DNA from: an uncultured Ruminococcus sp.
GTDB taxonomy: Bacteria; Bacillota; Clostridia; Oscillospirales; Acutalibacteraceae
Length of the DNA stretch: 37,541 bases
Direction: 5' to 3'
NCBI GenBank assembly: GCA_902764235.1
Contig: CACWVH010000044.1
Location: forward strand, 1-37,541
The notes under the pieces: generated by a model
Databases searched by the model: none
What the model saw: only the letters and a program-made list of their open reading frames with translations
What the model was told of the DNA's origin: nothing
Shown: positions 20,135 to 33,449 of the stretch, piece by piece
Position numbering within the stretch: position 1 is the stretch's first letter
Layout: every line of letters begins with the position of its first letter
Position numbers and translations under genes: made by a program

Positions 20135-20135
20135 C
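20093..20135 (+). other. attL of element A (tRNA 3' end)
   Basis: 43-bp sequence from CTCGTAATGAGGAAGTCGAG to CCAGCTC, identical at 29936-29978 and 34725-34767. This copy is part of the functional tRNA. Confidence 0.92.
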
Positions 20136-20203: not shown

Positions 20204-20224
20204 TTTGGGGACAGTTTGGGGACA
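20204..20224 (+). repeat. Probable integrase A arm sites, left
   Basis: TTTGGGGACA occurs twice in tandem (20204-20213 and 20215-20224). The same motif recurs at the right end of element A (29799-29829) and I saw it nowhere else, as expected for arm-type binding sites of the tyrosine integrase. Confidence 0.6.
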
Positions 20225-20366: not shown

Positions 20367-21563
20367 CTATGCTCTTTTCTGTTGTAGTGATGTAATAGTG
20401 TCGCCTAACGTGTCAGCTATTGTTTTATCAGCTTCCTGTATAGCGTGTACATATCTGTTTGTAGTACTGAGCTGTGAGTGACCCAAGCGGGCGGCGACCT
20501 GCTTTATATTTGCACCGTTAAGCAGTGAAAGTGTAGCCGATGTATGCCGCAGAGCATGAAGCTTTATATGCGGCAGCTTATGACGTTCAAGAAAATCACT
20601 GAATTGTTCTGTCGGTGTGTTCGGGTGCATGACAGAACCGTCTTTTTTTGTAAATATAAAATTATCCGCTATACCGTTCCATGCAGTTCCGAGAGTGAAT
20701 CTCTTTTCCGTTTGCTCAATTTGCAGCTGTCTGAGCAGATCAACACAGTATGCAGGAATAGCAACAACCCTGTTTTTGCCGCTTTTTGTGCTTTTGGTTT
20801 TGGCTTTTTCTCCGGTCAGCTGATACAGGCTTTTTGTTATGGATATTTTATAATTCTTATAATCAATATCACTCCATTTTAAGGAAGTTAATTCCCCTCG
20901 TCTGCAACCTGTTATTATAGCAAGATGTACCAATACTTGAAATTGCAGCGGCTCACTGTCAAGAGCTGAGAGCATAGCGGCAATTTGTTCTTTATCCATT
21001 ATGTCAGTTTTTTGTGTGCCGACAATGGAAGGGAGCTTTATTTTACCGCTGTCTGTCGGATTGGACGGGATCAGCTCAAGCCGATAAGCCGCAGACAATA
21101 CCGACTGCAAAACAGCATAATACCTTTTTACGCTTGCAGGCTTCAAAGCTCCGGTTTTACCGTCCTGCCGGTATTCACCGGATGAAAGCATATTTACAAA
21201 TTCCTGGACGTGTACCGGACGGATATCCTTAAGCTTTTTATGACCGAGTGCAGGAAGTATATACCTGTTTATTACCCTCTTGTATTCCTCTATCGTTGTA
21301 GGCTGTAATGCAAGTTTGGCACTCTCTAAATACTGAGGTATAAAGTCAGCTAATTTCAATCTGCCGTCTGCTGCTACCTCTCCATTCGATACCTTTTCTT
21401 CAAATTCAACAGCGGCTTTATTCAGAGCCTTTTCAAGCTGTTTATCCGTGTATTTTCTGTCAGGCTTCCATGTCATTGTACGCTTTATTCTCTTGCCGTT
21501 TACGTCAAATCCGCATGACACAACTATTCTGTAGCTGTCGCCCCGTTTTTCAATCGTTGCCAT
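20367..21563 (-). CDS. int: Tyrosine recombinase, integrase of element A
   Basis: 398 aa site-specific recombinase of the phage integrase family that recombines the tRNA-Thr att sites. An N-terminal arm-binding domain (1-65), a SAM-like core-binding domain (70-180) and a catalytic domain (185-398) are visible. Catalytic residues are R221 (TGCRRGE), H336-x2-R339 (HALRH), H362 and Y371 (TTNRYVH). The ATG at 21563 follows AGGTG. The gene reads toward attL. It shares family architecture with integrase B but is clearly diverged in sequence, despite using the same att core. Confidence 0.93.
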   Translation of the reverse strand: MATIEKRGDSYRIVVSCGFDVNGKRIKRTMTWKPDRKYTDKQLEKALNKAAVEFEEKVSNGEVAADGRLKLADFIPQYLESAKLALQPTTIEEYKRVINRYILPALGHKKLKDIRPVHVQEFVNMLSSGEYRQDGKTGALKPASVKRYYAVLQSVLSAAYRLELIPSNPTDSGKIKLPSIVGTQKTDIMDKEQIAAMLSALDSEPLQFQVLVHLAIITGCRRGELTSLKWSDIDYKNYKISITKSLYQLTGEKAKTKSTKSGKNRVVAIPAYCVDLLRQLQIEQTEKRFTLGTAWNGIADNFIFTKKDGSVMHPNTPTEQFSDFLERHKLPHIKLHALRHTSATLSLLNGANIKQVAARLGHSQLSTTNRYVHAIQEADKTIADTLGDTITSLQQKRA

Positions 21564-21662
21564 ACAAAACACCTGCTTTCAAAATTGATCTGTTAATTCT
21601 CATATGACACATTATTTGCCGCTTTTGAAGCTTTGTTCTATTCTAATTTGAAATATAATGTT

Positions 21663-22262
21663 CTAATCAGACTTTTTATTATTTTTGCAAAAACCTTTTA
21701 CAAAACCACCGAAAATCCGCTGTATCTCATATGAAATACCATATTCTATCTTTTCTTTCATTTCTTCATCCGAATAATCTCTAAATTTATAATCGTCATT
21801 ATTATTTTTCAAAGAAGAATATAAATACACCAGATCGAGCAAGTCTGTAAAATCCTCACATTTACCACTGCGAGAATACTCTGTAAAAAGATAATTAATA
21901 AAATCTATTGATAGTTTATTAAATCTATAATCACTTTCTTGATCTGTTTTACATTCTTTTACAAAATAGTGTAATAATTCAATGCTTTTTTCATGTAGTC
22001 CTGTAAATTCAGAAATAGCCTGTACTTCAATGTCTACCGTTTTGTTCTCAGTTCGTCCGAGCAAATAATCTGTCGTTGTTTCGAAGTATTGAGCTATAAC
22101 AATAAGCTGTTCTATATTAGGAGTTCTTTTTCCGTTCACGTAATAGCTTATTGTATTTTCAGTTACAGATAATACAGCAGCTAATTCTTTCTGTGTCTTT
22201 TTGCTGTCTGACAGTAATTTGTTAATACGCTCTCCAATTAATCTTCTTAAATCCTCATTCAT
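21663..22262 (-). CDS. XRE-family repressor of element A
   Basis: 199 aa. The N-terminal HTH_3 domain (8-65) contains TQKELAAVLSVTENTISYYVNGKRTP, and the remainder (about 75-199) is a helical domain of unknown type, probably for oligomerisation or signal sensing. There is no visible RecA-type autocleavage motif. It is transcribed divergently from the replication genes across palindromic ATAACA-N4-TGTTAT sites, so it is the likely CI/Stl-like lysogeny switch. Confidence 0.85.
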   Translation of the reverse strand: MNEDLRRLIGERINKLLSDSKKTQKELAAVLSVTENTISYYVNGKRTPNIEQLIVIAQYFETTTDYLLGRTENKTVDIEVQAISEFTGLHEKSIELLHYFVKECKTDQESDYRFNKLSIDFINYLFTEYSRSGKCEDFTDLLDLVYLYSSLKNNNDDYKFRDYSDEEMKEKIEYGISYEIQRIFGGFVKGFCKNNKKSD

Positions 22263-22276
22263 ACCATCAACCCTTT

Positions 22277-22347
22277 ATAACAAAAATGTTATTATCATAA
22301 AACTATATAACATTTTTGTTGACTTGTTATTGTTGTTATGCTATAAT
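22277..22347 (+). promoter_or_regulatory. Divergent control region of element A
   Basis: Two operator-like palindromes: ATAACA AAAA TGTTAT (22277-22292) and ATAACA TTTT TGTTGA (22307-22322). The second overlaps the -35 of a near-consensus rightward promoter: TTGACT (22319-22324), 17-bp spacer, TATAAT (22342-22347). Repression of the early genes by the XRE protein is inferred. Confidence 0.7.
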
Positions 22348-22408
22348 ATAATCATAGCAAAAAAGTTATGATTAGTCAACAACAATTTTTATGAAAGGAT
22401 GAATTTTA

Positions 22409-22585
22409 ATGAATAACACAGAGATTAGAGCCAGGGCAAAAAGCTGCGGTGTAAAGCTTTGGGAAATCGCCGAATGTATGGGAATTGCAGATCATACATT
22501 CAGCCGCAAGCTACGCAAGGAACTGCCGGAAGAAGAAAAAAGCCGTATCCTGTCCATCATTGACAAACTCAGTAATCAAAAATAA
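22409..22585 (+). CDS. Tiny helix-turn-helix protein of element A
   Basis: 58 aa, first gene of the rightward operon, start preceded by AAAGGATG. The sequence contains LWEIAECMGIADHTFSRKLR, an HTH-like pattern, and matches the 62-aa protein at the same place in element B (FWQVAAEIGLNDGNFSRMLR). Probably a Cro/AlpA-like DNA-binding regulator. Confidence 0.75.
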   Translation: MNNTEIRARAKSCGVKLWEIAECMGIADHTFSRKLRKELPEEEKSRILSIIDKLSNQK

Positions 22586-22603
22586 AAACAGCATAAAAAA
22601 GCA

Positions 22604-22632
22604 CCGTCTGACCTGTGGGGCAGATCAGACGG
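22604..22632 (+). terminator. Hairpin after the tiny HTH gene
   Basis: CCGTCTGA pairs perfectly with TCAGACGG; no long T run follows, so it may attenuate rather than terminate. Confidence 0.4.
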
Positions 22633-22738
22633 CAAACAAAGCACGAATACAAAAACAACAGCAAAGCTACTGTATAAATGCTTTATTCTATAATAGCACA
22701 ACAACGGCAATATGTAAATGAAAATGAGGTGTAATTTT

Positions 22739-23059
22739 ATGGAGATCGAAAAGTACACAATTCCCCGTGTTATAGGAGTAAAACAAGCGGCTGCTGAGTT
22801 CGGTATAGCCGAATACGCTTTAAGAACATGGATAAAGTCCGGGCAGCTCCCGGTGATACATTGCGGACGGAAACATCTGATAAACTGCACTGTACTCAGC
22901 CGCTTCCTGTCGGGTGAGTTCATGGAGAACACCAGAGAACCGGAACAGGTGCAGCCTGCCGCTGTAGGTGCAGACGGTGTAATATACACAAAAGTATCTG
23001 CAAAAACAGAAAGGACCCGCAGCGGCAAAGTTTACAAAGTTATGCCGGCGATCAGATAA
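22739..23059 (+). CDS. Excisionase/MerR-like DNA-binding protein
   Basis: 106 aa. The first 60 residues (YTIPRVIGVKQAAAEFGIAE, then RTWIKSGQLPVIHCGRKHLIN) form a winged-helix HTH_17-type domain as in excisionases. The C-terminal tail is Thr/Glu-rich and ends in a basic stretch. ATG 22739 follows GAGGTG. The equivalent in element B is 65 aa and lacks the tail. Likely directionality factor (Xis) or activator. Confidence 0.78.
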   Translation: MEIEKYTIPRVIGVKQAAAEFGIAEYALRTWIKSGQLPVIHCGRKHLINCTVLSRFLSGEFMENTREPEQVQPAAVGADGVIYTKVSAKTERTRSGKVYKVMPAIR

Positions 23060-23071
23060 GGCGGTGACGGT

Positions 23072-23401
23072 ATGAAAGATTACTTTAACGGCGGTACAGC
23101 GTACTACTTTGAAACACCCCCTTACTGTGATATCCTCGCTGCCATTGGTGACGGAGCAGAGAACGCCCGGCATAAATCAGAGCTGATCAGGCTTACAGGT
23201 ATGCAGGATAGGGAGCTGAGAAAAACAATTGAATTTCTCCGCAGACATGGAGTTGTTATAATATCTGATAGTCACGGATATTATTTCCCGTCAAATGAAA
23301 GGGAGCTTGCAGCGTATGTACACCAGGAAGAAAAAAGAGCTAAAAGCGTGTTTGGCACTCTAAGATATGCAAGACAGCTTTTGAAGAAATTTCAATCTTA
23401 A
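23072..23401 (+). CDS. Conserved winged-helix-like protein of element A
   Basis: 109 aa. Residues about 15-75 (AAIGDGAENARHKSELIRLT, LRKTIEFLRRHGVVIISDSHGYYFP) read as a winged helix with a beta-hairpin 'wing'. The element B protein at 32610 matches it through this core. Such small phage proteins often precede replication genes, but the function is not established. AAGGCGGTG before the start. Confidence 0.75.
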   Translation: MKDYFNGGTAYYFETPPYCDILAAIGDGAENARHKSELIRLTGMQDRELRKTIEFLRRHGVVIISDSHGYYFPSNERELAAYVHQEEKRAKSVFGTLRYARQLLKKFQS

Positions 23402-23464
23402 TGATATACCGCTGCCAGAATTTCAACAGATGGCAGCGGCAATTAAATATAAACGGAGGTAAAT

Positions 23465-24265
23465 ATGCCAAGTGTTAAAAAATACTATTGGTTGAAACTA
23501 AAAGAAGATTTTTTTAATCAAAAATATGTAAAAGCATTGAGGAAGCTTCCAGATGGTGATAGTCTGACAATTATTTATTTAAAAATGCAGCTTATGACCT
23601 TAAATACTTCCGGAATACTTGTTTTTGATCATATTATGCCGAATTGCGAAGCTGAAATTGCTTTATTACTGGACGAGGATGAAAACAAAGTTAAATTTGC
23701 TATAGAAGCATTAATAAAAATGGGGATAATCGAAAGACTTGATAACAATGACCTGTATTTATTGGCTATGTCTGAGTTAATAGGCTATGAAAGTGATTCG
23801 GCGGAACGTGTAAGAAAATTCAGAGAAAGAAAAAGAGCGTTACAATGTAACGAAAATGTAACGACAGAGAAAGAGATAGAGAAAGATATAGAGAAAGATA
23901 TAGAGATAGATATAGAGAATAATATGTCGGTTGACACCGACACGCAGGCGCAAATTGATTATAAAAAAATCGTTTCTTTATTCAATGAAATCTGTATGTC
24001 ACTGCCAAAAGTTAAAAATCTTTCTGAAAACAGAAAGCGAAATATAAAAAATGCAAGTAAAAAATTAAACGGTGATTTTGAAATTTTTTTCAAAAAAGTT
24101 GAAAGTTCCGACTTTCTGACAGGAAGAAAAGGGACATGGAGCGGCTGCAGCTTCGACTGGATCATGAAACCTCAGAACCTTATCAAGATCATTGAAGGTA
24201 ACTATGATAATAAAGAGCAACAGGGATATCATATAAACTATGCGGAAGGATTGGAGTACCTATGA
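23465..24265 (+). CDS. Phage-type replisome organizer
   Basis: 266 aa. The N-terminal domain (1-125: KKYYWLKLKEDFFNQKYVKALRKL and following) is the 'phage replisome organizer N-terminal' winged-helix fold. A linker of Glu/Lys/Asp/Ile repeats (about 137-155) is encoded by a tandem purine-rich repeat, and the C-terminus has a DnaD-like SFDWIMKPQNLIKIIEGNY. These proteins bind the element origin and recruit the helicase loader. The stop overlaps the next gene, a DnaC-like loader, by 4 nt (ATGA). Confidence 0.87.
   Translation: MPSVKKYYWLKLKEDFFNQKYVKALRKLPDGDSLTIIYLKMQLMTLNTSGILVFDHIMPNCEAEIALLLDEDENKVKFAIEALIKMGIIERLDNNDLYLLAMSELIGYESDSAERVRKFRERKRALQCNENVTTEKEIEKDIEKDIEIDIENNMSVDTDTQAQIDYKKIVSLFNEICMSLPKVKNLSENRKRNIKNASKKLNGDFEIFFKKVESSDFLTGRKGTWSGCSFDWIMKPQNLIKIIEGNYDNKEQQGYHINYAEGLEYL
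23868..23925 (+). repeat. Tandem purine-rich repeat inside the replisome organizer
   Basis: Repeats of 'gagaaagatata' and variants, about 12 bp each, code for the EKDIEKDIEIDIE linker. In related phages the origin often lies within this gene, so these may be origin iterons as well as coding sequence. Confidence 0.45.
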
Positions 24266-25110
24266 GTATACTTAATAAACTTATCGAAGAAGCCGCCAAA
24301 AGAGCGGAATGTATAAAAAAGGACGGCGACTATGTAACCCCTGATACAGGACTGCTTCATTGTGGTGTATGTAATGAGCCTAAACAGCAGATTGTTAAAC
24401 CCAACTTTCGTGATCCGTTCCTTGCTTTTCGTGAGTGCCGTTGTCAGCGTGAAGAAAGCCAAAAGGAACGGGAAGAGCTTGAACAATATGACAAAGAACA
24501 GCGGCAAAAGAAGCTGAAAAGTAAAGGTATTAAAACCGAAGCTTTCAAAAGCTTTACATTCGACAGTGACGATAAACGGAATATTGAAGTATCAAAGCTG
24601 TGCTGTAACTATATCCGACACTGGGACGAAATGGAAAAGGTATGCGGCGGTCTGCTGTTTTATGGAGATGTTGGCGGCGGTAAGTCGTTTTATGCCGGAT
24701 GTATAGCAAATGCACTGATAAAGAGAGATGTTCCCGTTCTTTTTACAAGCCTGAGAGATTTGGTAGATAACAGACAGGCGGCAAAGTTCAAGGGCGAGGA
24801 ATTGATTGATCTGCATGAATACAGGCTTTTTGTACTTGACGATATCGGAGCGGAAAAATTAAACAGATCGGATATTGATACTGCTTTCTCAGTTATTGAT
24901 GATATTTATTTGCTGAAAAAGCCGCTTATTGTTACTACAAACCTTACTATCTCGCAGCTCACCAAACCCACTAATCAGGAACTGGCAAGAATATACAGCC
25001 GTATTGTTGAACGATGCCCAAAGCCGGTATATGTTGACAATTCACGATACAACAGAACGACAGCGGCAGCCGAAAAGCGTAACCGGATAGATGATATATT
25101 AAGTCACTGA
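24262..25110 (+). CDS. DnaC-like helicase loader ATPase
   Basis: 282 aa. The N-terminal part has a CxxC...CRC metal site (about 34-60), a helical linker follows, and an AAA+ domain has Walker A GDVGGGKS (about 134-141) and Walker B LFVLDDIG (about 190). The arginine-finger region (ARIYSRIVERC) is present. It should load the host replicative helicase onto the origin opened by the upstream organizer. Element B has no counterpart. Confidence 0.88.
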   Translation: MSILNKLIEEAAKRAECIKKDGDYVTPDTGLLHCGVCNEPKQQIVKPNFRDPFLAFRECRCQREESQKEREELEQYDKEQRQKKLKSKGIKTEAFKSFTFDSDDKRNIEVSKLCCNYIRHWDEMEKVCGGLLFYGDVGGGKSFYAGCIANALIKRDVPVLFTSLRDLVDNRQAAKFKGEELIDLHEYRLFVLDDIGAEKLNRSDIDTAFSVIDDIYLLKKPLIVTTNLTISQLTKPTNQELARIYSRIVERCPKPVYVDNSRYNRTTAAAEKRNRIDDILSH

Positions 25111-25117
25111 CAAAAGA

Positions 25118-25183
25118 GCCGCCCCACTATTACAGCAGAACAGCCCTGACCTCAGCATTATTTTATCATGGGAGAGGGGCGGC
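25118..25183 (+). promoter_or_regulatory. Possible SD-sequestering stem before the sigma gene
   Basis: GCCGCCCC (25118-25125) is fully complementary to GGGGCGGC (25176-25183), which overlaps the ribosome-binding purine run before the start at 25189. The loop is about 50 nt. Confidence 0.4.
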
Positions 25184-25188
25184 GGTCA

Positions 25189-26031
25189 ATGGATATTGAA
25201 AATATCACCAATGAAGAATTAGCGACAGCGGCACAGGAAGGCAATAATGAGGTTATGCCGCTGTTGTGGGAAAAGAATGAAAGACTTGTCAAGCTGATAA
25301 TGTTCAAGCACTTGAACAAGCGTAAACTGCCGCCTTGTATTGACGAGGAAGATATTTTACAATGCGGTTATTTCGCTCTGCTTGCCGCTGTAAAGGCTTA
25401 TAAGCCGGGAGAATATAAGTTTACTACATATCTGAATTACAGCATACAGAACGCTGTAAATGAATGTATAAACGGCAGGAAACGCACTCCTGACAATCAG
25501 AGAGAAGTATCTTACAATCAGCGTATAAAAAATGCAGATAATGATGATCTTGAAATGTGGGAGCTTCTGAAAGACGAGGAAGCAGAGTTTGAGATATTCG
25601 AGGATATGGAGCTGTCAGATGAACAGCGGATAGTCCTGGATGCTGTATCAGAGCTTGAGCCTGAACAGCGGAGCATAATACAGCGGCATTACTTCCGGAA
25701 TATGACATTGAAAGAAATAGCCTGTCAGGATAATTGCAGCATAGAGAATATAAGACGTTATGAACGACAAGCTTTCAAAAAGCTCCGGAACAATCCGACA
25801 ATCAGGGCATTGAATGAGGAATTACAGTCCAACAGGTTCATAAAAGCCTTTGACCCTTATCGTATATCTCCGGAGTATTATAATGCTCTTGATGCTGCAC
25901 AGCGGCTTAAAATAAAGCTTTTGAAGCAGAAAAAGTATATATCATACGGTCACAGACAAGCTGAAATATTTCTGCTGCTATACAGAGCCGAACAGGATTT
26001 TAAGCGCAGGAACGAAAAATATTACAGATAA
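25189..26031 (+). CDS. Element-encoded sigma-70-like factor
   Basis: 280 aa. A region 2-like domain (about 10-95: DEEDILQCGYFALLAAVKAY, FTTYLNYSIQNAV), a spacer rich in acidic residues, and a region 4 HTH (about 145-200: LEPEQRSIIQRHYFRNMTLK, then CSIENIRRYERQAFKKLR) are clear. The last 80 residues are basic and unassigned. ATG 25189 is preferred to 25168 because the earlier one overlaps the ribosome site. It could direct late element transcription or take over host polymerase; its promoters are not known. Phage late regulators with sigma-like domains are an alternative reading. Confidence 0.8.
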   Translation: MDIENITNEELATAAQEGNNEVMPLLWEKNERLVKLIMFKHLNKRKLPPCIDEEDILQCGYFALLAAVKAYKPGEYKFTTYLNYSIQNAVNECINGRKRTPDNQREVSYNQRIKNADNDDLEMWELLKDEEAEFEIFEDMELSDEQRIVLDAVSELEPEQRSIIQRHYFRNMTLKEIACQDNCSIENIRRYERQAFKKLRNNPTIRALNEELQSNRFIKAFDPYRISPEYYNALDAAQRLKIKLLKQKKYISYGHRQAEIFLLLYRAEQDFKRRNEKYYR

Positions 26032-26622: not shown

Positions 26623-26982
26623 TTATGTTCCTATATTGTCCCAGTCAATATCACTGTCTGAAACAAAGCCGCTGTTTTCTGCTTTGGCTATTCTCTGACG
26701 TTCTGCCGGTGTAACCCTTGTAAAGTCCGGATCCCAGTCAACCGGTTTGCTATCCATGTACATTTTATCGGGACAAATATCTATTTCATTTCCGTCTTGG
26801 TCTTTCCATGTAACAGCACCGTACTCAATATATGCCTTGTTAAAGACACGAGTATCTTTCAGCGGCATGAATACAGGCTTGCACAGAAGCGGAGCGGCGT
26901 TATAGATCCGCTGTTCACCGCTGTCAAACGCAACAAGCATTTTATAGTCATTCTGAGGTATTACGCTGATAACCTTGTGCAT
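26623..26982 (-). CDS. DUF2442-domain protein
   Basis: 119 aa. The first 80 residues (KVISVIPQNDYKMLVAFDSG, PLKDTRVFNKAYIEYGAVTW, IDICPDKMY) match the DUF2442 pattern; an acidic tail follows. DUF2442 and DUF4160 proteins often occur as adjacent pairs that have been suggested to be toxin-antitoxin modules. ATG 26982 sits just after GGGGGTGTGAGT. It is the last gene of a three-gene minus operon. Confidence 0.78.
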   Translation of the reverse strand: MHKVISVIPQNDYKMLVAFDSGEQRIYNAAPLLCKPVFMPLKDTRVFNKAYIEYGAVTWKDQDGNEIDICPDKMYMDSKPVDWDPDFTRVTPAERQRIAKAENSGFVSDSDIDWDNIGT

Positions 26983-26995
26983 ACTCACACCCCCA

Positions 26996-27187
26996 TTACT
27001 TCAAAGGCTCAATCTTGAAAATCTGTTCGCCCTCGCTTGCAAGCTTCCAGTTTGCAAGCAGATCATCTTTGTGTATCTCTATCCATGCTTGTACAAGCTT
27101 ATCCTGCTTTTTGGGAAGTTCGCCCTTAAAAGCTTCACCGTCAAAGTTGTAGCAAGCCTGTTGATCTCCATAAACTACCCCTTTCAT
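26996..27187 (-). CDS. DUF4160-like protein, N-terminally short
   Basis: 63 aa containing the typical DUF4160 second half: FKGELPKKQDKLVQAWIEIH then LLANWKLASEG and IEPLK. The usual first 20-25 residues with the HxPPHFH motif are absent, so it is truncated or a minimal variant. The start overlaps the RHH stop (ATGA), and no separate ribosome site is seen, so translation should be coupled. Pairs with DUF2442 downstream. Confidence 0.72.
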   Translation of the reverse strand: MKGVVYGDQQACYNFDGEAFKGELPKKQDKLVQAWIEIHKDDLLANWKLASEGEQIFKIEPLK

Positions 27188-27393
27188 TCTACAGCGGCAT
27201 TGTCTCCGCTGCCGTCACGCTGCATTGTTTCATCAATGGCACGTTTGATAAAGCCATTCAAACTTTCGCCTTTACTTTCAGCATGGTTTTTTATTTTATC
27301 TTTATCGCCTTTTGGAACTCTGACTTTCAATTCATCATAGTTATCTTTCATATATTTTGCAACTGCTTTTTGTTGTGCTTTGGAAGCTGGCAT
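27184..27393 (-). CDS. Ribbon-helix-helix regulator, copy 1
   Basis: 69 aa Arc/MetJ-like protein: a beta strand (LKVRVPKGDK) and two helices (DKIKNHAESKGESLNGFIKR, AIDETMQRD). ATG 27393 follows AAGGCGGTG; a longer frame lacks a site. Its core is nearly identical to that of the protein at 27891-28085. It heads the DUF4160-DUF2442 operon and is the likely autorepressor or antitoxin component. Confidence 0.8.
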   Translation of the reverse strand: MPASKAQQKAVAKYMKDNYDELKVRVPKGDKDKIKNHAESKGESLNGFIKRAIDETMQRDGSGDNAAVE

Positions 27394-27412
27394 AATAACA
27401 CCGCCTTTTCTA

Positions 27413-27441
27413 TTGACAAATACTTTTTTTAATGCTATTAT
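27413..27441 (+). promoter_or_regulatory. Promoter of the small RNA facing the toxin gene
   Basis: TTGACA (27413-27418), 17-bp spacer, TATTAT (27436-27441). It lies between the RHH gene and the toxin-like gene, reading right. Confidence 0.7.
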
Positions 27442-27447
27442 ATGTGT

Positions 27448-27533
27448 AGACAAGGAACGGTTTTAGCTGTTCCGCATAAGGGTTTATTTTACTAAACCGC
27501 TCTGTATTGCGAGTACAGGGCGGTTATTTCTTT
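27448..27533 (+). ncRNA. Candidate RNA antitoxin
   Basis: Expected transcript of about 85 nt from the consensus promoter at 27413 to the stem CCGCTCTGTA/TACAGGGCGG (27497-27523) and its T-rich tail. It contains stems GGAAC/GTTCC and GGTTTA/TAAACC, no ORF, and overlaps the 3' end of the convergent toxin mRNA. Confidence 0.55.
27497..27533. terminator. Shared bidirectional terminator of toxin and antitoxin RNAs
   Basis: CCGCTCTGTA with TACAGGGCGG (10 bp, one wobble). The + direction is followed by TTATTTCTTT; the minus direction by TTTAGT. It begins immediately after the toxin stop codon. Confidence 0.65.
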
Positions 27534-27604
27534 ATGTAGCTGATAACTTCTTTCATAGCCAATAAGACTATTGCAAAAGCAAGTAATGTCAAAACATCAT
27601 TCAT
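27524..27604 (-). CDS. Type I toxin-like hydrophobic peptide
   Basis: 26 aa, MNDVLTLLAFAIVLLAMKEV then ISYIKK: one membrane span and a basic C-terminus, as in Fst/Ldr or 'holin-like' type I toxins. The purine run AAAGGGGG is 9 nt before the ATG and lies inside a stem, CTCCCTT-GAGA-AAGGGGG (27614-27631), which would hide it from ribosomes. Its own promoter is at 27668-27696. Convergent with the small RNA above. Confidence 0.6.
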   Translation of the reverse strand: MNDVLTLLAFAIVLLAMKEVISYIKK

Positions 27605-27667
27605 CAATACATACCCCCTTTCTCAAGGGAGCTGAAACAGCCGCCACCGTTCCTTACTACGTATATC

Positions 27668-27696
27668 ATTATACCACATAATTATATAGGGTACAA
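27668..27696 (-). promoter_or_regulatory. Promoter of the toxin-like gene
   Basis: On the minus strand TTGTAC (27696-27691), 17-bp spacer, TATAAT (27673-27668). The -35 overlaps an ATATAGGGTAC operator-like site (27684-27694). Confidence 0.6.
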
Positions 27697-27774
27697 TATA
27701 CATATTAAACAATATATCGGGTACATAATTGTTTAATATTCCGTCTTGATATATCGGGTACGATATAGTATAAT
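27684..27774 (+). promoter_or_regulatory. Operator array 1 with rightward promoter
   Basis: Three related sites, ATATAGGGTAC (27684-27694) and ATATATCGGGTAC twice (27712-27724, 27749-27761). The last lies in the spacer of TTGATA (27746-27751)-17 bp-TATAAT (27769-27774). The middle site is bracketed by ATTAAACAAT/ATTGTTTAAT. Likely bound by one of the two RHH proteins. Confidence 0.6.
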
Positions 27775-27890
27775 AAATACAGTAAGGAACACAAACACAC
27801 GATCAGAACGGAAAGGGGCGGCGGGTTATGATCTTCATAGTACATTCTTATAAGTATTCCATAAAACATCGATATCGTGGGCATTATCTC
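27766..27890 (+). pseudogene. Duplicated promoter-leader with a lost or cut-off gene
   Basis: Bases 27766-27799 are identical to 28247-28280 (from TAGTATAATAAATACAG to CACAAACACA), and both run on into a similar purine-rich ribosome site and an ATG (27828; 28309). After 27828 only about 20 codons remain before the frame runs antisense into the second RHH gene, so the gene once served by this leader seems to have been lost. Confidence 0.4.
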
Positions 27891-28085
27891 TTACTCCTTT
27901 CCGCTGTCACGCTCCATTGTTTCATCTATGGCACGCTTGATAAAGCCGTTGAGCGTTTCACCTCTGCCGGTGGCGTGAGCCTTTACCTGTTCGTATTTGT
28001 CAAGCTTTAGATCAAGAGGGACACGCTTCAAGTTATTCTTTGCGTATTCAATATTGTACTGTGTTTTCTTTTCGCTGTTCGCCAT
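27891..28085 (-). CDS. Ribbon-helix-helix regulator, copy 2
   Basis: 64 aa Arc-like protein: YAKNNLKRVPLDLKLDKYEQ then GRGETLNGFIKRAIDETMER. The helix core matches copy 1 almost residue for residue, while the N-terminal strand (the DNA-contact part of this fold) differs. This agrees with the two different operator sequences next to them. Ribosome site AAGGCGGTGAAGG. Divergent from the HIRAN-like gene. Confidence 0.8.
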   Translation of the reverse strand: MANSEKKTQYNIEYAKNNLKRVPLDLKLDKYEQVKAHATGRGETLNGFIKRAIDETMERDSGKE

Positions 28086-28149
28086 ACCTTCACCGCCTTA
28101 TTGTTATATCCGGAGCGGCTCCAATTAAGACACCCTCTCCATTATCTGT

Positions 28150-28255
28150 ATTATACCACAAATGCAATACTATGTACATAGCCAAAATAAACAAAGTTAC
28201 GTACGTAAGTTTGTAGAGTTTACCACTATCTTTTTAGTTACGTACGTAGTATAAT
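28150..28255. promoter_or_regulatory. Operator array 2, divergent promoters
   Basis: GTTACGTACGTA is exact at 28196-28207 and 28237-28248. Rightward TATAAT is at 28250-28255 (weak -35, TATCTT). Leftward TATAAT is at 28155-28150 with TGTACA 17 bp upstream. The second operator abuts the rightward -10. Confidence 0.6.
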
Positions 28256-28308
28256 AAATACAGTAAGGAACACAAACACAGACAGCAAACGGAAAGGCGG
28301 CGGCGATT

Positions 28309-28731
28309 ATGTATAACAGATCAGTAATATGCAGAGTAGCAAACAATCTCAGGAAACAGGGCTATACACTGTCGGCTGCTTTCCGTGCAGCGTGGAGACT
28401 TGCAAAGAGCAAAGCCGCTGTAAAGGTTGCCGGAGTAAGCAAGTACAACAGGCAGAAAGCTCTTGACCATCTCCGCAGCTACTCCGCTGAAAGTGTGCAG
28501 ATCACCTTACAGAGAGAGAGCCGCAACACATACGACAGCAACGCTATATCCGTACTGGTAAGCGTGAACGGCAGCAAGGCTTATAAAATGGGCTATATTC
28601 CCGCCGCTGTGGCTGCTTTACTGAGTGAGGTAATAGATAACATTACCGAGATAAAAGCGAGCTTGCAGGCGATTACAGGCGGCTTCTACGCTGATATGAT
28701 GTCAGGGCTGAGGCTCAATCTCTCAATCTGA
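28309..28731 (+). CDS. HIRAN-like domain protein
   Basis: 140 aa. After a basic helical N-terminus (1-40), residues about 42-125 resemble a HIRAN domain: YNRQKALDHLRSYSAESVQI with RESRNTYDSNAISVLV and MGYIPAAVA. HIRAN domains bind DNA ends or stalled forks in helicases such as HLTF; stand-alone forms are common in mobile elements and are of unknown role. Expression is driven by the operator-controlled promoter at 28250. Confidence 0.7.
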   Translation: MYNRSVICRVANNLRKQGYTLSAAFRAAWRLAKSKAAVKVAGVSKYNRQKALDHLRSYSAESVQITLQRESRNTYDSNAISVLVSVNGSKAYKMGYIPAAVAALLSEVIDNITEIKASLQAITGGFYADMMSGLRLNLSI

Positions 28732-28770
28732 GGGCTGCGGTGAAATACCGTAGCTAAGAATCTAATAATA

Positions 28771-28804
28771 GCCGCTGTAGCGGTCAGAACGGCACTACAG
28801 CGGC
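28771..28804 (+). other. Intergenic hairpin with CAGCGGC arms
   Basis: GCCGCTGTAG pairs perfectly with CTACAGCGGC (28771-28780, 28795-28804). No T run, so a processing, attenuation or DNA-level role is possible. Confidence 0.5.
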
Positions 28805-28826
28805 ACAATGAAAGAAGGTGAATAAC

Positions 28827-28997
28827 GTGCAGGAACGTACATTTGCAATTAGTACCGCTGATATGGCGAGTTTGTTAATGCTGCTGACTGATATTGATGA
28901 AATAATAGACAGCGGCGGTGCTGTTTCAGACGAAATTATAGACGAACTCAGGTTTATACAACCGGAACTCGAAAGGATCGTTATATCTGAAGCATGA
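28827..28997 (+). CDS. Small acidic protein of unknown function
   Basis: 56 aa from a GTG start preceded by AAGAAGGTG; rich in Asp/Glu/Ile (TDIDEIIDSGGAVSDEIIDE). An in-frame GTG at 28818 is an alternative. Too small to assign. It lies between the HIRAN-like gene and the 99-aa gene with the same orientation. Confidence 0.5.
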   Translation: MQERTFAISTADMASLLMLLTDIDEIIDSGGAVSDEIIDELRFIQPELERIVISEA

Positions 28998-29143
28998 ACA
29001 CAACATATCAGAACGAAAACGGCGGCAGTTCCAAAGCCCGCAAAGCATGAACCGCCGCCACCAGATACCGGAGCAAAGCCCCATAGTGTAAGTATAGCAC
29101 AGCGGAGCAGCTCCGGCAAGTACAAAATGAAAGGAAGTAAAAC

Positions 29144-29443
29144 ATGAAGGATATTTTTAACCCGGACAACTACACGGAGGAAGCAATGCCGTTATCATCT
29201 GCATTATGCAATGCCATTAATGATATGGGTAATCTTGATCATAATTCTGCCGCTGTCAACGCTTGTATTGAAAAGTACAAGGAAATAAACGATAAATTTT
29301 ATAGTACGCTTACGGAAGAACAAATCAAACTTCTTATTGATATACAATGGGGAGAGATGGAAGAAACAGGCATTGTTGCAGGAGAATATTTTAATAGAGG
29401 TTTTCGCTTTGGAATGCTGCTCATGAAGGAGCTTTTCGGTTGA
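29144..29443 (+). CDS. Hypothetical protein, 99 aa
   Basis: Helical, acidic protein (KDIFNPDNYTEEAMPLSSAL at the start, GIVAGEYFNRGFRFGMLLMK near the end). The last segment resembles the C-terminus of small phage or plasmid proteins of unknown function. AAAGGAAG precedes the ATG. Last gene of element A. Confidence 0.65.
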   Translation: MKDIFNPDNYTEEAMPLSSALCNAINDMGNLDHNSAAVNACIEKYKEINDKFYSTLTEEQIKLLIDIQWGEMEETGIVAGEYFNRGFRFGMLLMKELFG

Positions 29444-29935
29444 AACTACATACTTATCATTAAGGCTTGAAGTCAAGTGCTTTGAGCCTGTTTTATTATG
29501 AGTACAGCGACAGAGATCAGAGCGACAGCATAAAGCTCTACTGTTCCGCTGTTGTGAACAATAAAAGAAAAATGTTGCTTTCTCTATCTCATTTACTTCA
29601 CTTATGTTGTGAGCATTTCAATAAAATTCTGTGGATTTTCAGAGGTAGCAAGCTTAGATTTTGTACTCCCATTGTACGTACAAAATCGGTTGTCGGTGAA
29701 AATAAATCGCTGTCGCTCTCCTGTACAAAAATGCTTTATACTATACAGCGGCATACTCTCAGCGGTTCGGGAGCTTACCGCTGTATCCGATGATTATCTT
29801 GGGGACACTTTGGGGACAGTGTCCCCAAAAAGCAACTGAATAATACTGCTTTAAATTCGTTATGATTAAGCTGAAAGCCGCATTAATTCAGCGTTTTTAG
29901 AAAACAGTAATAATCACAAAATGTACTTTTTGTCC
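29444..29935. other. Right-end non-coding region of element A
   Basis: No credible gene. Contains a 9-bp stem ATTTTGTAC/GTACAAAAT (near 29658-29688), a CAGCGG-armed hairpin at 29752-29787 (TACAGCGG...CCGCTGTA), and the integrase arm-type repeats below. Confidence 0.5.
29799..29829 (+). repeat. Probable integrase A arm sites, right
   Basis: TTGGGGACA (29799-29807), TTTGGGGACA (29809-29818) and its inverse TGTCCCCAAA (29820-29829), matching the left-end pair at 20204-20224. Confidence 0.6.
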
Positions 29936-29978
29936 CTCGTAATGAGGAAGTCGAGGGTTCAAGTCCCTTTTCCAGCTC
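29936..29978 (+). other. attM, junction of elements A and B
   Basis: Exact 43-bp copy of the tRNA 3' segment. Only this part of the tRNA is present, so it is an att remnant, not a gene. Confidence 0.92.
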
Positions 29979-30042
29979 CAAAAAATGGCTTTACAATGCG
30001 GTTTTTGAAACTTTGATAAATCACAAATTTTTCGAGGGTTTA

Positions 30043-30066
30043 AAAAGTACAGGCAAAAGTACAGGC
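30043..30066 (+). repeat. Probable integrase B arm sites, left
   Basis: AAAAGTACAGGC repeated exactly in tandem (30043-30054, 30055-30066). The motif recurs at the right end of element B (34559-34600). Confidence 0.6.
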
Positions 30067-30085
30067 ATTGTCAAAAAATCAAAAT

Positions 30086-30128
30086 AAAAACAGCGGTTAT
30101 TTGTAAAAGAATAGCCGCTGTTTTTGTG
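30086..30128 (-). terminator. Terminator of the integrase B gene
   Basis: AAAAACAGCGG pairs with CCGCTGTTTTT immediately beyond the integrase stop codon; symmetrical A/T tails allow either direction. Confidence 0.65.
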
Positions 30129-30131
30129 TTT

Positions 30132-31325
30132 TTATGAAGTTTCTGCTATGAGGTTACGGACAGTATCACCGACTTTTTTAATTGATTCTTGATTAGCGTG
30201 TGCATAAAATCGTAATGTAGTGCTAACGTCTGAGTGTCCGAGACGAGCTGCAACAGATGTCACGTCTGCACCATTTGTAATTGAAAGTGTCGCTGATGTG
30301 TGGCGTAAAATATGTGGGTGAAAGTTTTCTACTCCATATCTTTTACCGAAACTATCAAAATACCCTGTTGGTGAATTAAAAAACATTCTTTCAGCATTGC
30401 TGTCCTGAGTAAATACCCACTGAGACAAAATACCGTTGTTTAATTGCTCTTTGTGAAGTTCTTTTAATAGTGATAAGCTTTTTGCACCTATATCAACCGT
30501 CCGGGATTTACCGTTTTTGGGCGTTGTTAGATACTCGCCGGATTCGGGTGTATATCCTACTGATTTACTGATTTGCACTAAACCTGTATCAAAATCAATA
30601 TCCGTCCAGTTAAGGGCGAGCAATTCAGAACGGCGACAGCCTGTATCAAAAAGCAAATAAACGTATGTTTGCCATTTTAACGGCTCTGAGTTCAAGCATT
30701 TCAGAACGTGTTTAAGTTCATCCAGCGACAGAGATTTAACAGTATTGTCATTATCCAGTCTTTTTTCTTTTTGCTCTTTTGGGCGTGTGACTTTCTGCAT
30801 TGGATTTATTTCAATAGTATCGTCCATAATAGCCATATCAAAAAAGGTACTCAAAATAACATAAAGTTTAATCGTGCTGCCGTGTTTATGTGTTTTGCCA
30901 AATTCAAGCAGTCGAGCCGTAATCATACGAGGTGTTATTTCATTCAATGTAAATTCACCAAAATACGGCAAAATATGAAGCCTGAAATATGAGCAATAAT
31001 CCGAGTATGTTTTTTGAGATAGAATGCGTTGCTTTGTAGGTGAATACACGTCTGTAAAATACTGACTGAAAGTTTTAATTTTTGCCCGTTCAAGTTCTTC
31101 TTGATGGGCTTTTTGTTTTTTCATCTTTCTGTTTTCAACTTCACCGTTTTTACACTTGTTTTCAAAATCAGCGGCAAATGAAGCTAATTTTCTTTCTATG
31201 ACTTTTCTACTCCACGTCTTTTCGGGATAATACCGTGTTGTAAATTGCTGATCATGACTAACAGATACCACTATCTTATAAAACAGTCTGCCGTCTTTTG
31301 TGTACATCTCTTTTGTGCTTGCCAT
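30132..31325 (-). CDS. int: Tyrosine recombinase, integrase of element B
   Basis: 397 aa phage-type integrase. Arm-binding N-terminus (1-65), core-binding domain (85-185) and catalytic domain (195-397) with R231 (TGCRRSE), H338-x2-R341 (HILRH), H364 (RLGHSDVSTT) and Y374. Ribosome site AAGGAGTG before the ATG. It recognises the same tRNA core as integrase A, but its likely arm sites are different (AAAAGTACAGGC), so the two systems should be independent at the level of synapsis. Confidence 0.93.
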   Translation of the reverse strand: MASTKEMYTKDGRLFYKIVVSVSHDQQFTTRYYPEKTWSRKVIERKLASFAADFENKCKNGEVENRKMKKQKAHQEELERAKIKTFSQYFTDVYSPTKQRILSQKTYSDYCSYFRLHILPYFGEFTLNEITPRMITARLLEFGKTHKHGSTIKLYVILSTFFDMAIMDDTIEINPMQKVTRPKEQKEKRLDNDNTVKSLSLDELKHVLKCLNSEPLKWQTYVYLLFDTGCRRSELLALNWTDIDFDTGLVQISKSVGYTPESGEYLTTPKNGKSRTVDIGAKSLSLLKELHKEQLNNGILSQWVFTQDSNAERMFFNSPTGYFDSFGKRYGVENFHPHILRHTSATLSITNGADVTSVAARLGHSDVSTTLRFYAHANQESIKKVGDTVRNLIAETS

Positions 31326-31340
31326 TATTTTTCACTCCTT

Positions 31341-31847
31341 TTATACATTTGGATTGTATTGTACGTCTGCACCCGTTATTTTATATTCGCATATCATATA
31401 ATCTTTTTTGCTGCCGTCATTAATTAAACTGCCGCTGTATTTAGCAAATACATCTTTTTTCATACTTTCAATCGTTTCTTTTGAAATAAAATCAGAATTA
31501 CTTTGAATTTTTTCAATTTCATCCAGCGATTGTAAAATTTTCATAAGATTATCACTGATTGAAACAAACATAGTGTTTTTTTCAAAACGAATACTGAAAT
31601 ATCTTTTCAAGTTGTTGATAATTTCAGCGGCTTTGTTACCTGTTTCAGTACGTCCAAGCAGAAAATCAGTTGATGTATCAAGATAATCTGCAAGCATACA
31701 CAAAGTATCAAATGTTAATTTGCCCTTTTCTGCTTCAGCTATTGTTGAACGTGATACAGCAACATTTTCTGCAAGTTCATCCTGAGTTAATCCACGCTGC
31801 ACACGTAAACTCTTAATTCTTTGTCCGACTGCCTTTTTATCAAACAT
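31341..31847 (-). CDS. XRE-family repressor of element B
   Basis: 168 aa. HTH_3 domain at 5-62 (LRVQRGLTQDELAENVAVSR, then EKGKLTFDTLCMLADYLDTS). The C-terminal part is helical and different from the element A repressor, as expected for distinct immunity. ATG 31847 follows GGAGTGG. Faces the rightward replication genes across a 390-bp control region. Confidence 0.82.
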   Translation of the reverse strand: MFDKKAVGQRIKSLRVQRGLTQDELAENVAVSRSTIAEAEKGKLTFDTLCMLADYLDTSTDFLLGRTETGNKAAEIINNLKRYFSIRFEKNTMFVSISDNLMKILQSLDEIEKIQSNSDFISKETIESMKKDVFAKYSGSLINDGSKKDYMICEYKITGADVQYNPNV

Positions 31848-32237
31848 TATAACCACTCCATTTATTGTTGTTGTTATCATAATATAGTTTAACATAGCGA
31901 TTGTCAAAAATCAATATTTTTGAGTGAATAATCAATAATCTGTACAAAAAATGTTATAGACTTGACATTGTACAGATATCTTATACATTTACGTGCAAAA
32001 ATGGCATTATACAAAACATATATAAAATATATCTGTACATACAAGGCGTAATAATTAACACTTATTCAAGTATTTAATACAATTAATAATAAATGCACAC
32101 AAATCAAGTCGTTTTTTGACATATCAGAGAATTTCATAACGTGAAATTTATACAAATTTCTTTTGTTTTATCTATTTTAGACAAACTGATAAAATGCTAT
32201 CATAAACACAACAACAAAACGAAGGAGTTGAAATTGT
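31848..32237. promoter_or_regulatory. Divergent control region of element B
   Basis: AT-rich, no gene. CTGTACA occurs at 31940-31946 and 32033-32039, with the inverse TGTACAG at 31969-31975 just after a TTGACA (31963). These are the best operator candidates for the element B repressor. A second TTGACA lies near 32117. I cannot pick a single rightward promoter with confidence. Confidence 0.5.
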
Positions 32238-32426
32238 ATGGCGAATGAGAAAATCAAGTCATTGATTCGAGCAAACCACTTGTATTTTTGGCAGGTTGCA
32301 GCAGAAATTGGACTGAATGACGGAAATTTCAGCAGAATGTTACGCCGTGAGTTATCACCTGACAAAAAGCTGATAGTCGAGCAAGCTATTGAAACACTGA
32401 GCAAGGAGAAAAACAATGGAAACTGA
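32238..32426 (+). CDS. Tiny helix-turn-helix protein of element B
   Basis: 62 aa, counterpart of the 58-aa protein of element A: LYFWQVAAEIGLNDGNFSRM then LRRELSPDKK. Probably Cro/AlpA-like. GAAGGAGTT before the ATG; its end overlaps the next gene by 11 nt. Confidence 0.75.
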   Translation: MANEKIKSLIRANHLYFWQVAAEIGLNDGNFSRMLRRELSPDKKLIVEQAIETLSKEKNNGN

Positions 32427-32613
32427 AAAAATTTATTTGACGATCAACGAATTTGCAAACATAACCGGATTGAGCCGCACTTTTATCCGGGAATGCTGCA
32501 GAAATGAAAAAATACCAACTATCCGAGTTGGCAGCGGTACAAATAAAACATATATGATACACGTTCAAAAGGCGTTATCTCAATTCGAGAAAATGACAGG
32601 GGGAAAATTATGA
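32416..32613 (+). CDS. Excisionase-like HTH protein of element B
   Basis: 65 aa winged-helix protein (YLTINEFANITGLSRTFIRE, then KIPTIRVGSGTNKTYMIHV) of the HTH_17/Xis type. Stop overlaps the next start (ATGA). Likely directionality factor for integrase B. Confidence 0.78.
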   Translation: METEKIYLTINEFANITGLSRTFIRECCRNEKIPTIRVGSGTNKTYMIHVQKALSQFEKMTGGKL

Positions 32614-32936
32614 GTGAAAAGACAGCAAAATATTATCAGGTCGAGCCATACGCCACCATTCTTTCAGCAATCGGAAACGGCAGCCAGAATGCACGACACA
32701 AAAATCAATTAGTCCGCTTAACTGGCATGAGCGAACGAGCTTTGCGGAAATCTATTGAGCATTTACGGCGAGAGAATTTTGTTATTATTTCAGACGAAAA
32801 CGGATATTATTTTCCGCAGTCGCAAAAAGACCGCACGGCAGATGTTGAAGGCGATGCAAGAAATGCAATGAATAATAAAGAGCCGCTGTCCTTTACGGCG
32901 GCGGCAAGGATATTTCACGAATTTCAAAAACCATAA
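32610..32936 (+). CDS. Conserved winged-helix-like protein of element B
   Basis: 108 aa, clear homologue of the 109-aa protein of element A. Shared core: AIGNGSQNARHKNQLVRLTG then ALRKSIEHLRRENFVIISDE and GYYFPQ. The conservation between two otherwise diverged elements suggests a central role, perhaps replication control or activation. Confidence 0.75.
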   Translation: MSEKTAKYYQVEPYATILSAIGNGSQNARHKNQLVRLTGMSERALRKSIEHLRRENFVIISDENGYYFPQSQKDRTADVEGDARNAMNNKEPLSFTAAARIFHEFQKP

Positions 32937-32943
32937 AAAAGAG

Positions 32944-33438
32944 GTGAGGGAGACGGCACAAAGGCGAATGTTCAGCAAAAACATTGTAGAATCTGACGAT
33001 TTTATTGACCTATCAAAAGGAGCTAAATTGTTATATTTTTTGTTAGGCGTTGCGGCAGACGATGAGGGTTTTATCCTGAACTGCAAAGCGATAATGCGAG
33101 TTCACGAAATTGATAAATCCGAGCTTGATGAATTAATTGAAAAAGGTTTTGTAATCCCCTTTGATAAATCATTATGTATCAGACATTGGACTATGAATAA
33201 TCAGCTACGTTTTGACAGGTTCAACAAATCTGAATGTAAAGATCGGGACAAAATTCGCATAAGCCCAACAGGAAAAGTATATTATACCGTTGAAGAAATA
33301 GAGCAACAATCTGATTTGATAACGGTGACACTTGATGAGTTTATCGAACAAAGAAAACAAGGCAAATCTAATTCAACAGCACAGCGAGACGAGAAAACAG
33401 CGGCACTTAGAGACGCATTTAATCGACAGTACTGTTAG
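32944..33438 (+). CDS. Replisome-organizer-like protein, probably cut short
   Basis: 164 aa from a GTG start; the RRMFSKNIVESDDFIDLSKG opening with GVAADDEGFI and FVIPFDKSLCIRHW is typical of phage replisome organizers, which are usually 250-300 aa. The stop is TAG at 33436, but the same frame stays open for 42 more codons with a Thr/Gln/His/Lys-rich linker like that of family members, then meets a second TAG at 33565. So the gene is truncated by an amber codon, or read through. The DnaD-like C-terminus is missing. Confidence 0.75.
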   Translation: MRETAQRRMFSKNIVESDDFIDLSKGAKLLYFLLGVAADDEGFILNCKAIMRVHEIDKSELDELIEKGFVIPFDKSLCIRHWTMNNQLRFDRFNKSECKDRDKIRISPTGKVYYTVEEIEQQSDLITVTLDEFIEQRKQGKSNSTAQRDEKTAALRDAFNRQYC

Positions 33439-33449
33439 TATTTATTGTG

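Follow-up and report, generated by a model that had tools for sequence, protein, structure and literature searches.

Two small tandem elements at a tRNA-Thr gene of an uncultured Ruminococcus resemble phage satellites organised like Gram-positive phage-inducible chromosomal islands

Results

The window, that is the whole 37,541-nt stretch of DNA analysed here, belongs to contig CACWVH010000044.1 (G000:C44), one contig of the 254-contig draft genome of an uncultured Ruminococcus sp. (GCA_902764235.1), and harbours two small integrated elements, A and B, in tandem at a tRNA-Thr(CGT) gene. The intact tRNA gene (20062..20135, plus strand, ARAGORN) is the integration target, and three identical 43-nt copies of its 3' end, all on the plus strand, serve as borders, with attachment (att) core copy 1 (20093..20135) at the left end of A, copy 2 (29936..29978) at the A/B junction and copy 3 (34725..34767) at the right end of B. 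Element A spans 20093-29935 (9,843 bp) and element B 29936-34724 (4,789 bp). As the three 43-nt copies are exact, chance is excluded as the source of these borders. A first-pass annotation, made by a model from the letters alone, had given the sizes of 4.8-9.8 kb correctly, and the full extents exceed the region 20367-33438 to which it had assigned the pair.

Just inside both ends of each element lie pairs of short direct repeats (plus strand, located by pattern position), of the TTGGGGACA type in A, with TTTGGGGACA twice at 20204..20224 on the left and TTGGGGACA twice at 29799..29818 on the right, and AAAAGTACAG in B, twice each at 30043..30064 and 34559..34579. These pairs look like integrase arm sites and, since they differ between A and B, the two elements probably use separate recombination systems and arrived independently of each other.

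On the minus strand, A encodes a tyrosine integrase of 401 aa (20367..21572; Phage_integrase 4.9e-26, Phage_int_SAM_3 2.5e-17) and an XRE/CI-type repressor (21663..22262; HTH_3 4.5e-11). Divergent from the repressor, on the plus strand, follow a tiny helix-turn-helix (HTH) protein of 58 aa (22409..22585; phrog_17740 4.7e-14), an excisionase (Xis)-like HTH_17 protein with an open reading frame (ORF) of 113 aa (22718..23059; phrog_66 excisionase 1.4e-6, HTH_17 6e-6, slightly below its cut-off), a winged-helix protein (wHTH) of 109 aa (23072..23401; phrog_2113 6.5e-15), a replisome organiser (23465..24265; Phage_rep_org_N 2.3e-23) and a DnaC-like helicase loader (24262..25110; IstB_IS21 1.5e-12, phrog_50 2.1e-39). 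Element B likewise encodes, on the minus strand, a tyrosine integrase of 397 aa (30132..31325; Phage_integrase 1.7e-30) and an XRE repressor (31341..31907; HTH_3 5.3e-11) and, on the plus strand, a tiny HTH protein of 62 aa (32238..32426; phrog_17740 1.4e-11), an Xis-like protein of 65 aa (32416..32613; phrog_575 Cox-like excisionase 2.3e-5), a wHTH of 108 aa (32610..32936; phrog_2113 6.7e-13) and a DnaD-like replication protein of 164 aa (32944..33438; phrog_8489 5.6e-32, no Pfam family).

By global identity, with z calculated against 200 shuffles, the wHTH proteins of A and B are 46% identical (z 42) and the tiny HTH proteins 33% (z 16), which bears out the homology proposed for both pairs by the first-pass annotation. 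Its contrast with diverged integrases and repressors needs correction, as both are homologous too (37%, z 66, and 33%, z 12, respectively) and are not the most diverged parts. The Xis-like pair is marginal (26%, z 2.3), and the replication proteins, Phage_rep_org_N plus the DnaC-like loader in A versus the different DnaD-like family in B, do not align (z -0.2). The common order claimed earlier consequently stands for the leftward int and XRE genes, the divergent tiny HTH, the Xis-like and wHTH genes and the position of a replication gene, but not for the replication genes themselves, which come from different families that do not align; the plan is therefore a common one with replaceable replication genes.

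Among the scanned A and B proteins no capsid, terminase, relaxase or transfer family was recognised (Pfam, PHROGs; a B ORF of 47 aa at 34104-34247 lay outside the scan), in agreement with the earlier claim of their absence, nor was any other virion or lysis gene, apart from a chance-level match of the B Xis-like protein to the terminase small subunit phrog_141 (E 0.046); the B wHTH showed a marginal match to a DNA primase profile (phrog_3022, E 0.03). Each element thus has borders from the tRNA-Thr 3' end, an integrase and a repressor of its own, a divergent early operon with a replication gene, and no recognised virion gene. On this sequence basis we consider it likely that A and B are phage satellites which integrated independently of each other and which follow, at only 4.8 and 9.8 kb, the gene plan of phage-inducible chromosomal islands (PICIs) of Gram-positive bacteria, probably travelling in the particles of other viruses.

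The same genome contains two further family loci, both cut by a contig end. Element C, at the start of another contig (G000:C23:1-4600), encodes an integrase, Xis, a 103-aa wHTH, a DUF6291 protein and a protein resembling the terminase small subunit (TerS), while the fourth locus (G000:C3:46140-49698) encodes a serine recombinase, a repressor, a tiny HTH and a wHTH. In the order of the host, Oscillospirales, to which the search for the wHTH beside integrases once proposed for Clostridia was applied, the wHTH profile (A5) matches 48 of 394 genomes (E <= 1e-4) and the TerS-like profile (A6) 20 of 394. Inspection covered 32 regions, 22 of them from the wHTH list and another 10 from the TerS-like list. 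A neighbouring integrase (own hidden Markov model, HMM) or serine recombinase (by eye) was seen in 18 of the former and nine of the latter; the five places without a recombinase are L107, L108, L115, L121 and L130, three of which (L108, L121, L130) reach contig ends.

At both ends of 19 elements, A and B included, lies an exact repeat of 17 to 61 nt that copies a tRNA 3' end; L037 has an end repeat of this type with the tRNA itself outside the view. The targeted tRNAs are those for Thr, Met, Pro, Cys, Arg, Ala and Leu, and L034, L035, L103, L112 and L131 adjoin the 3' end of a putative rpsI gene (judged by eye). Twenty repeat-bounded spans, including A and B, measure 4,789 to 12,017 bp (median 7,217). 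In 24 bounded elements, chosen by wHTH or TerS-like matches, own HMMs built from 1 to 8 sequences each called an integrase in 24, a wHTH in 18 and a TerS-like protein in 10, three of these ten having been fetched for the TerS-like protein itself. The counts are lower bounds, as the simple gene caller overlooked wHTH and Xis genes found by profiles (the Xis of A; the wHTH of L109-L111). Integrase and early genes lie on opposite strands in all 22 bounded elements in which both were called.

Own small HMMs for the terminase large subunit (TerL) and portal gave no match in the 24 bounded elements, while family scans do give a TerL-like protein in L119. From these elements, 81 extra ORFs of at least 100 aa were listed, and 79 were scanned: the 24 Pfam families matched comprise one tape-measure match and terminase large-subunit families and no capsid, portal, tail-tube, lysis, relaxase or type IV secretion system (T4SS) family; of 113 PHROGs families the best 25 were considered. 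Related copies with structural or conjugation modules, which the first-pass annotation had named as the finding that would refute a satellite-like family, were sought and not found in comparable elements. The related elements look like a widespread group in the order of the host for which we found no description. Openly licensed literature, the part covered by our search (most subscription work lies outside it), describes no such satellites for Ruminococcus, Clostridia, Firmicutes gut bacteria, Oscillospirales, rumen or Faecalibacterium, in keeping with the earlier remark that no family of this type is described in Ruminococcus-like bacteria, and neither do the available excerpts of PMC12946183, PMC7113391, PMC11318856 and PMC11792537.

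The TerS-like protein (phrog_2538) matches 30 phage-database records. Of these, 26 bear the name of a Streptococcus satellite phage, three come from human faecal viromes as contigs, and the remaining one is a phage; none is named as a full-length Streptococcus phage. The resemblance to PICIs noted at first sight holds for the gene order, and relatives share the TerS-like protein with Streptococcus satellite phages. An AlphaFold2 model from three sequences (predicted local distance difference test, pLDDT, 85) places an HTH before long helices. Counterparts of the Cys-rich 72-aa and 78-aa proteins of B (33658..34099, plus strand; ORFs without a PHROGs family) stand before the TerS-like gene in relatives, and the own HMMs CYS and 83aa each match five of the 24 bounded elements. 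A Terminase_2 TerS is encoded in L106, with no TerL seen in its 19-kb region, and a second one at the contig edge of L108. TerL-like proteins at L119:8479-9840 and L201:489-1871 share 62% identity; each is encoded next to a TerS-like gene, and no capsid gene was recognised in their elements.

Tape-measure genes, assigned by family matches, occur in satellite-like loci without other recognised virion genes at L109:12600-14507, L113:14739-16379, L121:5291-7039, L128:11942-14053, L131:2877-5495 and L200:4583-6736. The first five loci are chromosomal (no integrase was seen in L121), whereas L200, with a phrog_1535 match (2.8e-34), is a contig from a human faecal virome. When 54 proteins of L113, L121, L128, L131, L200 and L201 were scanned with Pfam, 21 families were matched, with no capsid, portal or tail-tube among them; one protein matches Phage_Gp15 and is taken for the 194-aa protein just before the L200 tape-measure gene, where it presumably acts as a tail chaperone.

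Distant wHTH relatives also occur in ICE-like regions (integrative and conjugative elements; L038-L040, by eye) and in full-length phages, so that the wHTH alone is no marker of these elements. L038-L040, which look like ICEs, were rejected as satellites, as were MT839241.1 (L045), a wHTH match that looks like an ICE fragment, MT837302 (L205), which resembles the early region of a phage, and the apparently chromosomal MT837627/MT839957 (L206, L207). The structure model of the wHTH (pLDDT 70) indicates no more than a winged helix and gave no PDB match at E <= 0.001.

Relaxase-less elements mobilised by conjugation exist, and A and B could be small integrative elements mobilised in trans in this way, that is cis-mobilisable elements (CIMEs) or relaxase-less integrative and mobilisable elements (IMEs), with int/xis and replication genes and only an origin of transfer (oriT) for a resident ICE. 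Besides the wHTH relatives in L038-L040, an ICE-like gene (by eye) on contig L009 of the same genome agrees with this explanation. On the other hand, the 79 scanned proteins contain no relaxase or coupling-protein family (a scan of protein families only, oriT not having been searched for), the relatives carry TerS-like, Terminase_2 TerS, TerL-like and tape-measure genes, and the database relatives of the TerS-like protein are mainly satellite phages, which leaves mobilisation by conjugation an unlikely origin of A and B.

Support for mobility comes from a near-twin of A, L048 (RUG10851; G440 copy), which is 97.8% identical over 4,053 bp, 97.7% over int and 94.0% over 1,852 bp, with a repressor and tiny HTH block that has no match and has been replaced between the twins. 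As the CobW-like proteins of the two hosts are only 84% identical, A has probably moved recently between species. L048:1-13066 is an A/B hybrid, the A part of which continues into late genes of the B/C type including the TerS-like gene, and its right end is 85.6% identical to that of B over 341 bp; the modules therefore recombine. Over eight A genes together, the ratio of non-synonymous to synonymous changes per site (pN/pS) between A and its twin is 0.14 (33.7/4,021 versus 61.3/1,058 sites, uncorrected). Single-gene values are 0.06 (int), 0.19 (rep) and 0.32 (dnaC), the sigma, wHTH and HIRAN genes having too few changes for a value. The comparison shows a signature of purifying selection on the genes of A.

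This low ratio bears on a further explanation, namely that A and B are decayed prophages which kept the early region and lost the virion genes. The early genes indeed belong to phage families, distant wHTH relatives lie in full-length phages, and relic-like related loci exist (G436, G434; L119 and L123 with int in two ORFs). However, besides the selection signature, both ends and the main ORFs are intact in A and B, several families contain elements of this small plan, at various tRNA genes and next to rpsI, and no recognisable half-deleted prophage was seen in the 32 regions (read by eye and with small HMMs), which makes decay highly improbable.

A circular form is represented by a virome relative, MT836267.1 (L201; record: Bacteriophage sp., human fecal samples, Mexico), whose 11,458 bp carry identical 124 bases at both ends and therefore constitute an 11,334-bp circle. 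It possesses a single 45-nt core, which agrees at 39 of 45 positions with the att copy that L104 has at tRNA-Thr(GGT), with the repeat GTATGGGTTTT on both flanks and without chromosomal flank, and the one core with GTATGGGTTTT on both sides identifies attP; excision of this relative is thereby indicated. Its integrase is 51-54% identical to those of L116, L124, L041 and L104, and it encodes also an XRE protein, a primase-like protein, a ribbon-helix-helix (RHH) protein, a weak TerS-like and a TerL-like protein, with no capsid gene recognised in the Pfam scan. Its source may be PMC8361208, which does not link the accession in its text and which, in the excerpt available, reports filtered, chloroform- and DNase-treated particles from Mexican children.

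With respect to the target, the tRNA-Thr(CGT) of G446 is unoccupied, with one att copy and no integrase, but is an imperfect empty-site comparison, as the 2-kb gap from the tRNA to the CobW-like gene holds two other ORFs. At the tRNA-Thr(CGT) of other genus members, an A-like left end is found in G448 and a B-like left end without int in G436. Sequence resembling the left end of A follows the tRNA over about 55 nt in G446 and 200-230 nt in G015; it may represent relics of old elements or an element-borne terminator, which this likeness does not separate. As to prophages at the attachment sites, two small own TerL/portal HMMs gave no match in the loci of 11 relatives, several of which are short and several of whose contigs end at the tRNA.

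The octamer ACAGCGGC/GCCGCTGT occurs 24 times in A and 7 times in B (20093-34724), versus once in the 20-kb flank (1-20061); in pieces of the same genome, 40 sites in 22.8 kb of element DNA compare with 8 in 53.9 kb of chromosome. The sites lie on both strands, in coding and intergenic DNA, some within terminator-like hairpins, and are raised also in the family elements L034, L035, L037, L046, L102 and L103, elsewhere being weaker or absent. In the flanking chromosome, long exact repeats are found at 424-476 and 16797-16849, 16.37 kb apart.

Downstream of its replication genes A encodes a sigma-70-like factor (25168..26031, plus strand; Sigma70_r4 4.2e-12, phrog_351 3.3e-30), followed on the minus strand by a Pfam-assigned DUF2442 (26623-26988) and DUF4160 (26996-27187) gene pair (26623..27187) and two small RHH/Arc-like proteins (27184-27453, Arc 1.4e-4, and 27891-28085, no family), the region of which (27184..28085) contains a duplicated stretch with a 61-nt repeat of 84% identity and an exact 34-nt repeat. 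On the plus strand, a HIRAN-domain protein (28309..28731; HIRAN 2.5e-10), the only PADLOC candidate (PDC-M03B, 1.3e-11) among eight A and B proteins, and a DUF6809 protein (29144..29443; Pfam 4e-6) complete the element. In L110, an AbiD/Abi_2 gene (L110:14379-15347) directly follows the right att copy of the element there.

Discussion

Several observations, besides the wHTH relatives in ICE-like regions and phages, weigh against A and B as phage satellites. Neither a TerS nor a known interference gene is found in the two elements. Placement of the TerS-like protein of relatives in phrog_2538 is weak (E 1.6e-7 in element C, 3e-8 to 7e-5 in five of six others, none for L122 and 7e-4 for L201), its model has no PDB match with E <= 0.001 (top match 2ao9, a Bacillus phage protein; Sf6 TerS at rank 20; all E above 0.1), and the one phage with a homologue measures 30.7 kb. 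The search for a helper gave none: between A, B or C and the two TerL-matching contigs of the genome (L009, L010), matches are no longer than 13-19 nt, and no shared packaging site was seen. Four IMG/VR scans, queried with alignments of the wHTH and of the TerS-like protein and with the integrase of B, found no close relative and yielded only two distant wHTH proteins, in phage contigs (L043, L044). Finally, MT836267.1 is a mere relative, its integrase being 42% identical to that of B, and since other contigs of its deposit (L206, L207) look chromosomal, its presence does not prove packaging, which is only suggested.

In the satellite interpretation, which we favour, the XRE repressor would silence the early operon in the integrated state until an infecting or induced phage lifts repression, upon which Xis and Int would excise the element as a circle at attP and the replisome organiser, in A together with DnaC, would load the host helicase and amplify the element. 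Its DNA would enter helper-built particles via a helper-like packaging site (A and B) or a satellite TerS (relatives), and Int would insert the element at the tRNA-Thr of the next cell.

Ruminococcaceae and Oscillospiraceae release small-capsid particles with 4.6-8.9 kb DNA, R. callidus with 4.6 kb (PMC12946183, excerpt). This particle DNA is close in size to many of the elements described here. A and B might be cargo of gene-transfer-agent (GTA)-like particles that spreads without a true helper phage, an explanation with which the overlap of these published sizes with the element sizes (median 7.2 kb) and of the host groups agrees. However, seven of 20 repeat-bounded elements, A included, exceed 8.9 kb, and the TerS-like and tape-measure genes point towards phage-specific hijacking; we regard GTA cargo as quite improbable. 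A more far-reaching scenario, put forward tentatively and with a small chance of being correct, extends the satellite interpretation to a distinct, hitherto unrecognised clade of very small satellites in Ruminococcus-like bacteria and their order, in rumen and human gut. They would build hybrid virions from a modular kit that is empty in A and B and in other members supplies TerS only, TerS together with TerL, or TerS/sigma together with a tape-measure protein and perhaps a tail chaperone. Members with a tape-measure gene would form chimeric tails like those of the phage-inducible chromosomal island-like element (PLE), and part of the 4.6-8.9 kb Ruminococcaceae particles attributed to GTAs would be ridden or shaped by these satellites.

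Satellite families in the literature excerpts available stem mostly from Staphylococcus, Streptococcus, other Firmicutes, Enterobacteria and Vibrio. A family across the order of Ruminococcus, dominant in rumen and human gut and with families reported to release small DNA-filled particles, would make a hidden gene-transfer route testable there. Elements of 4-5 kb help to narrow the minimum satellite gene set, and lone tape-measure genes offer a second setting for testing tail hijacking.

Comparison with known systems

Mobilisable elements are defined by a relaxase and ICEs in addition by a T4SS, neither of which turned up when the proteins of A and B and the 79 ORFs of bounded elements were scanned. 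Gram-positive PICIs, according to an excerpt of PMC6092414, combine a leftward int and master repressor with a divergent xis/replication module, measure typically about 15 kb, occupy attachment sites never used by prophages, sometimes carry terS or a helper-like pac/cos site, interfere with helper phages and possess PICI-unique genes. Their gene order is found in A and B and their strand arrangement likewise in relatives, and A and B lack virion genes as PICIs do, while some relatives have a tape-measure or TerL-like gene. Sizes fall below 15 kb, a typical value and no hard rule, with 9.8 kb for A, 4.8 kb for B and 4.8-12.0 kb for the 20 bounded elements. With regard to terS or pac/cos, a TerS-like gene is present in 10 of 24 bounded elements, element C and the G440 hybrid and absent from A and B, for which no site shared with L009/L010 was seen. 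As to PICI-unique genes, the TerS-like protein is found in 26 satellite-named of 30 records, whereas the wHTH is also present in ICE-like regions and phages (all compared with the PMC6092414 excerpt).

The Streptococcus satellite phage Javan245 (MK448382, 6,450 bp) has the same layout, with an integrase, XRE, a 62-aa regulator, a 59-aa protein, an annotated primase of 237 aa and a TerS-like protein. It shares with Gram-positive PICIs and with A and B the leftward int/repressor, the divergent small regulator and the replication gene without structural genes, and the TerS-like protein with relatives of A and B, although the own tiny-HTH and wHTH HMMs do not match in Javan245. Unlike Gram-positive PICIs and Streptococcus satellites, A and B reside in Ruminococcus-like hosts and lack TerS. 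The S. thermophilus chromosomal islands (StCIs), which end in direct repeats, belong mainly to type C of the PICIs and in some cases to type D (PMC13376191, excerpt).

Phage-inducible chromosomal minimalist islands (PICMIs) of Vibrionaceae are minimal satellites that measure a few kb, 6.7 kb on average, lie next to fis and have int, alpA and prim as core genes (PMC10803314, excerpt). A and B resemble them in small size and in the set of integrase, regulator and replication gene, but have a tRNA-Thr site and an XRE/tiny-HTH switch. Neither AlpA nor primase is among the family matches of A and B, bar the marginal phrog_3022 match of the B wHTH. The genome of A and B harbours four family loci, in contrast to never more than one PICMI per genome (PMC10803314, excerpt).

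The PLE of Vibrio cholerae uses its own tape-measure protein for chimeric tails; other satellites with a tape-measure protein were unreported before, and putative ones are shown in PLE-like elements and capsid-forming PICIs (cf-PICIs) (PMC12987554, excerpt). In contrast to PLE, hosts and core genes are different here, and the tape-measure gene is found only in relatives of A and B and not in A or B, yet these relatives, like PLE, encode a putative tape-measure protein of their own.

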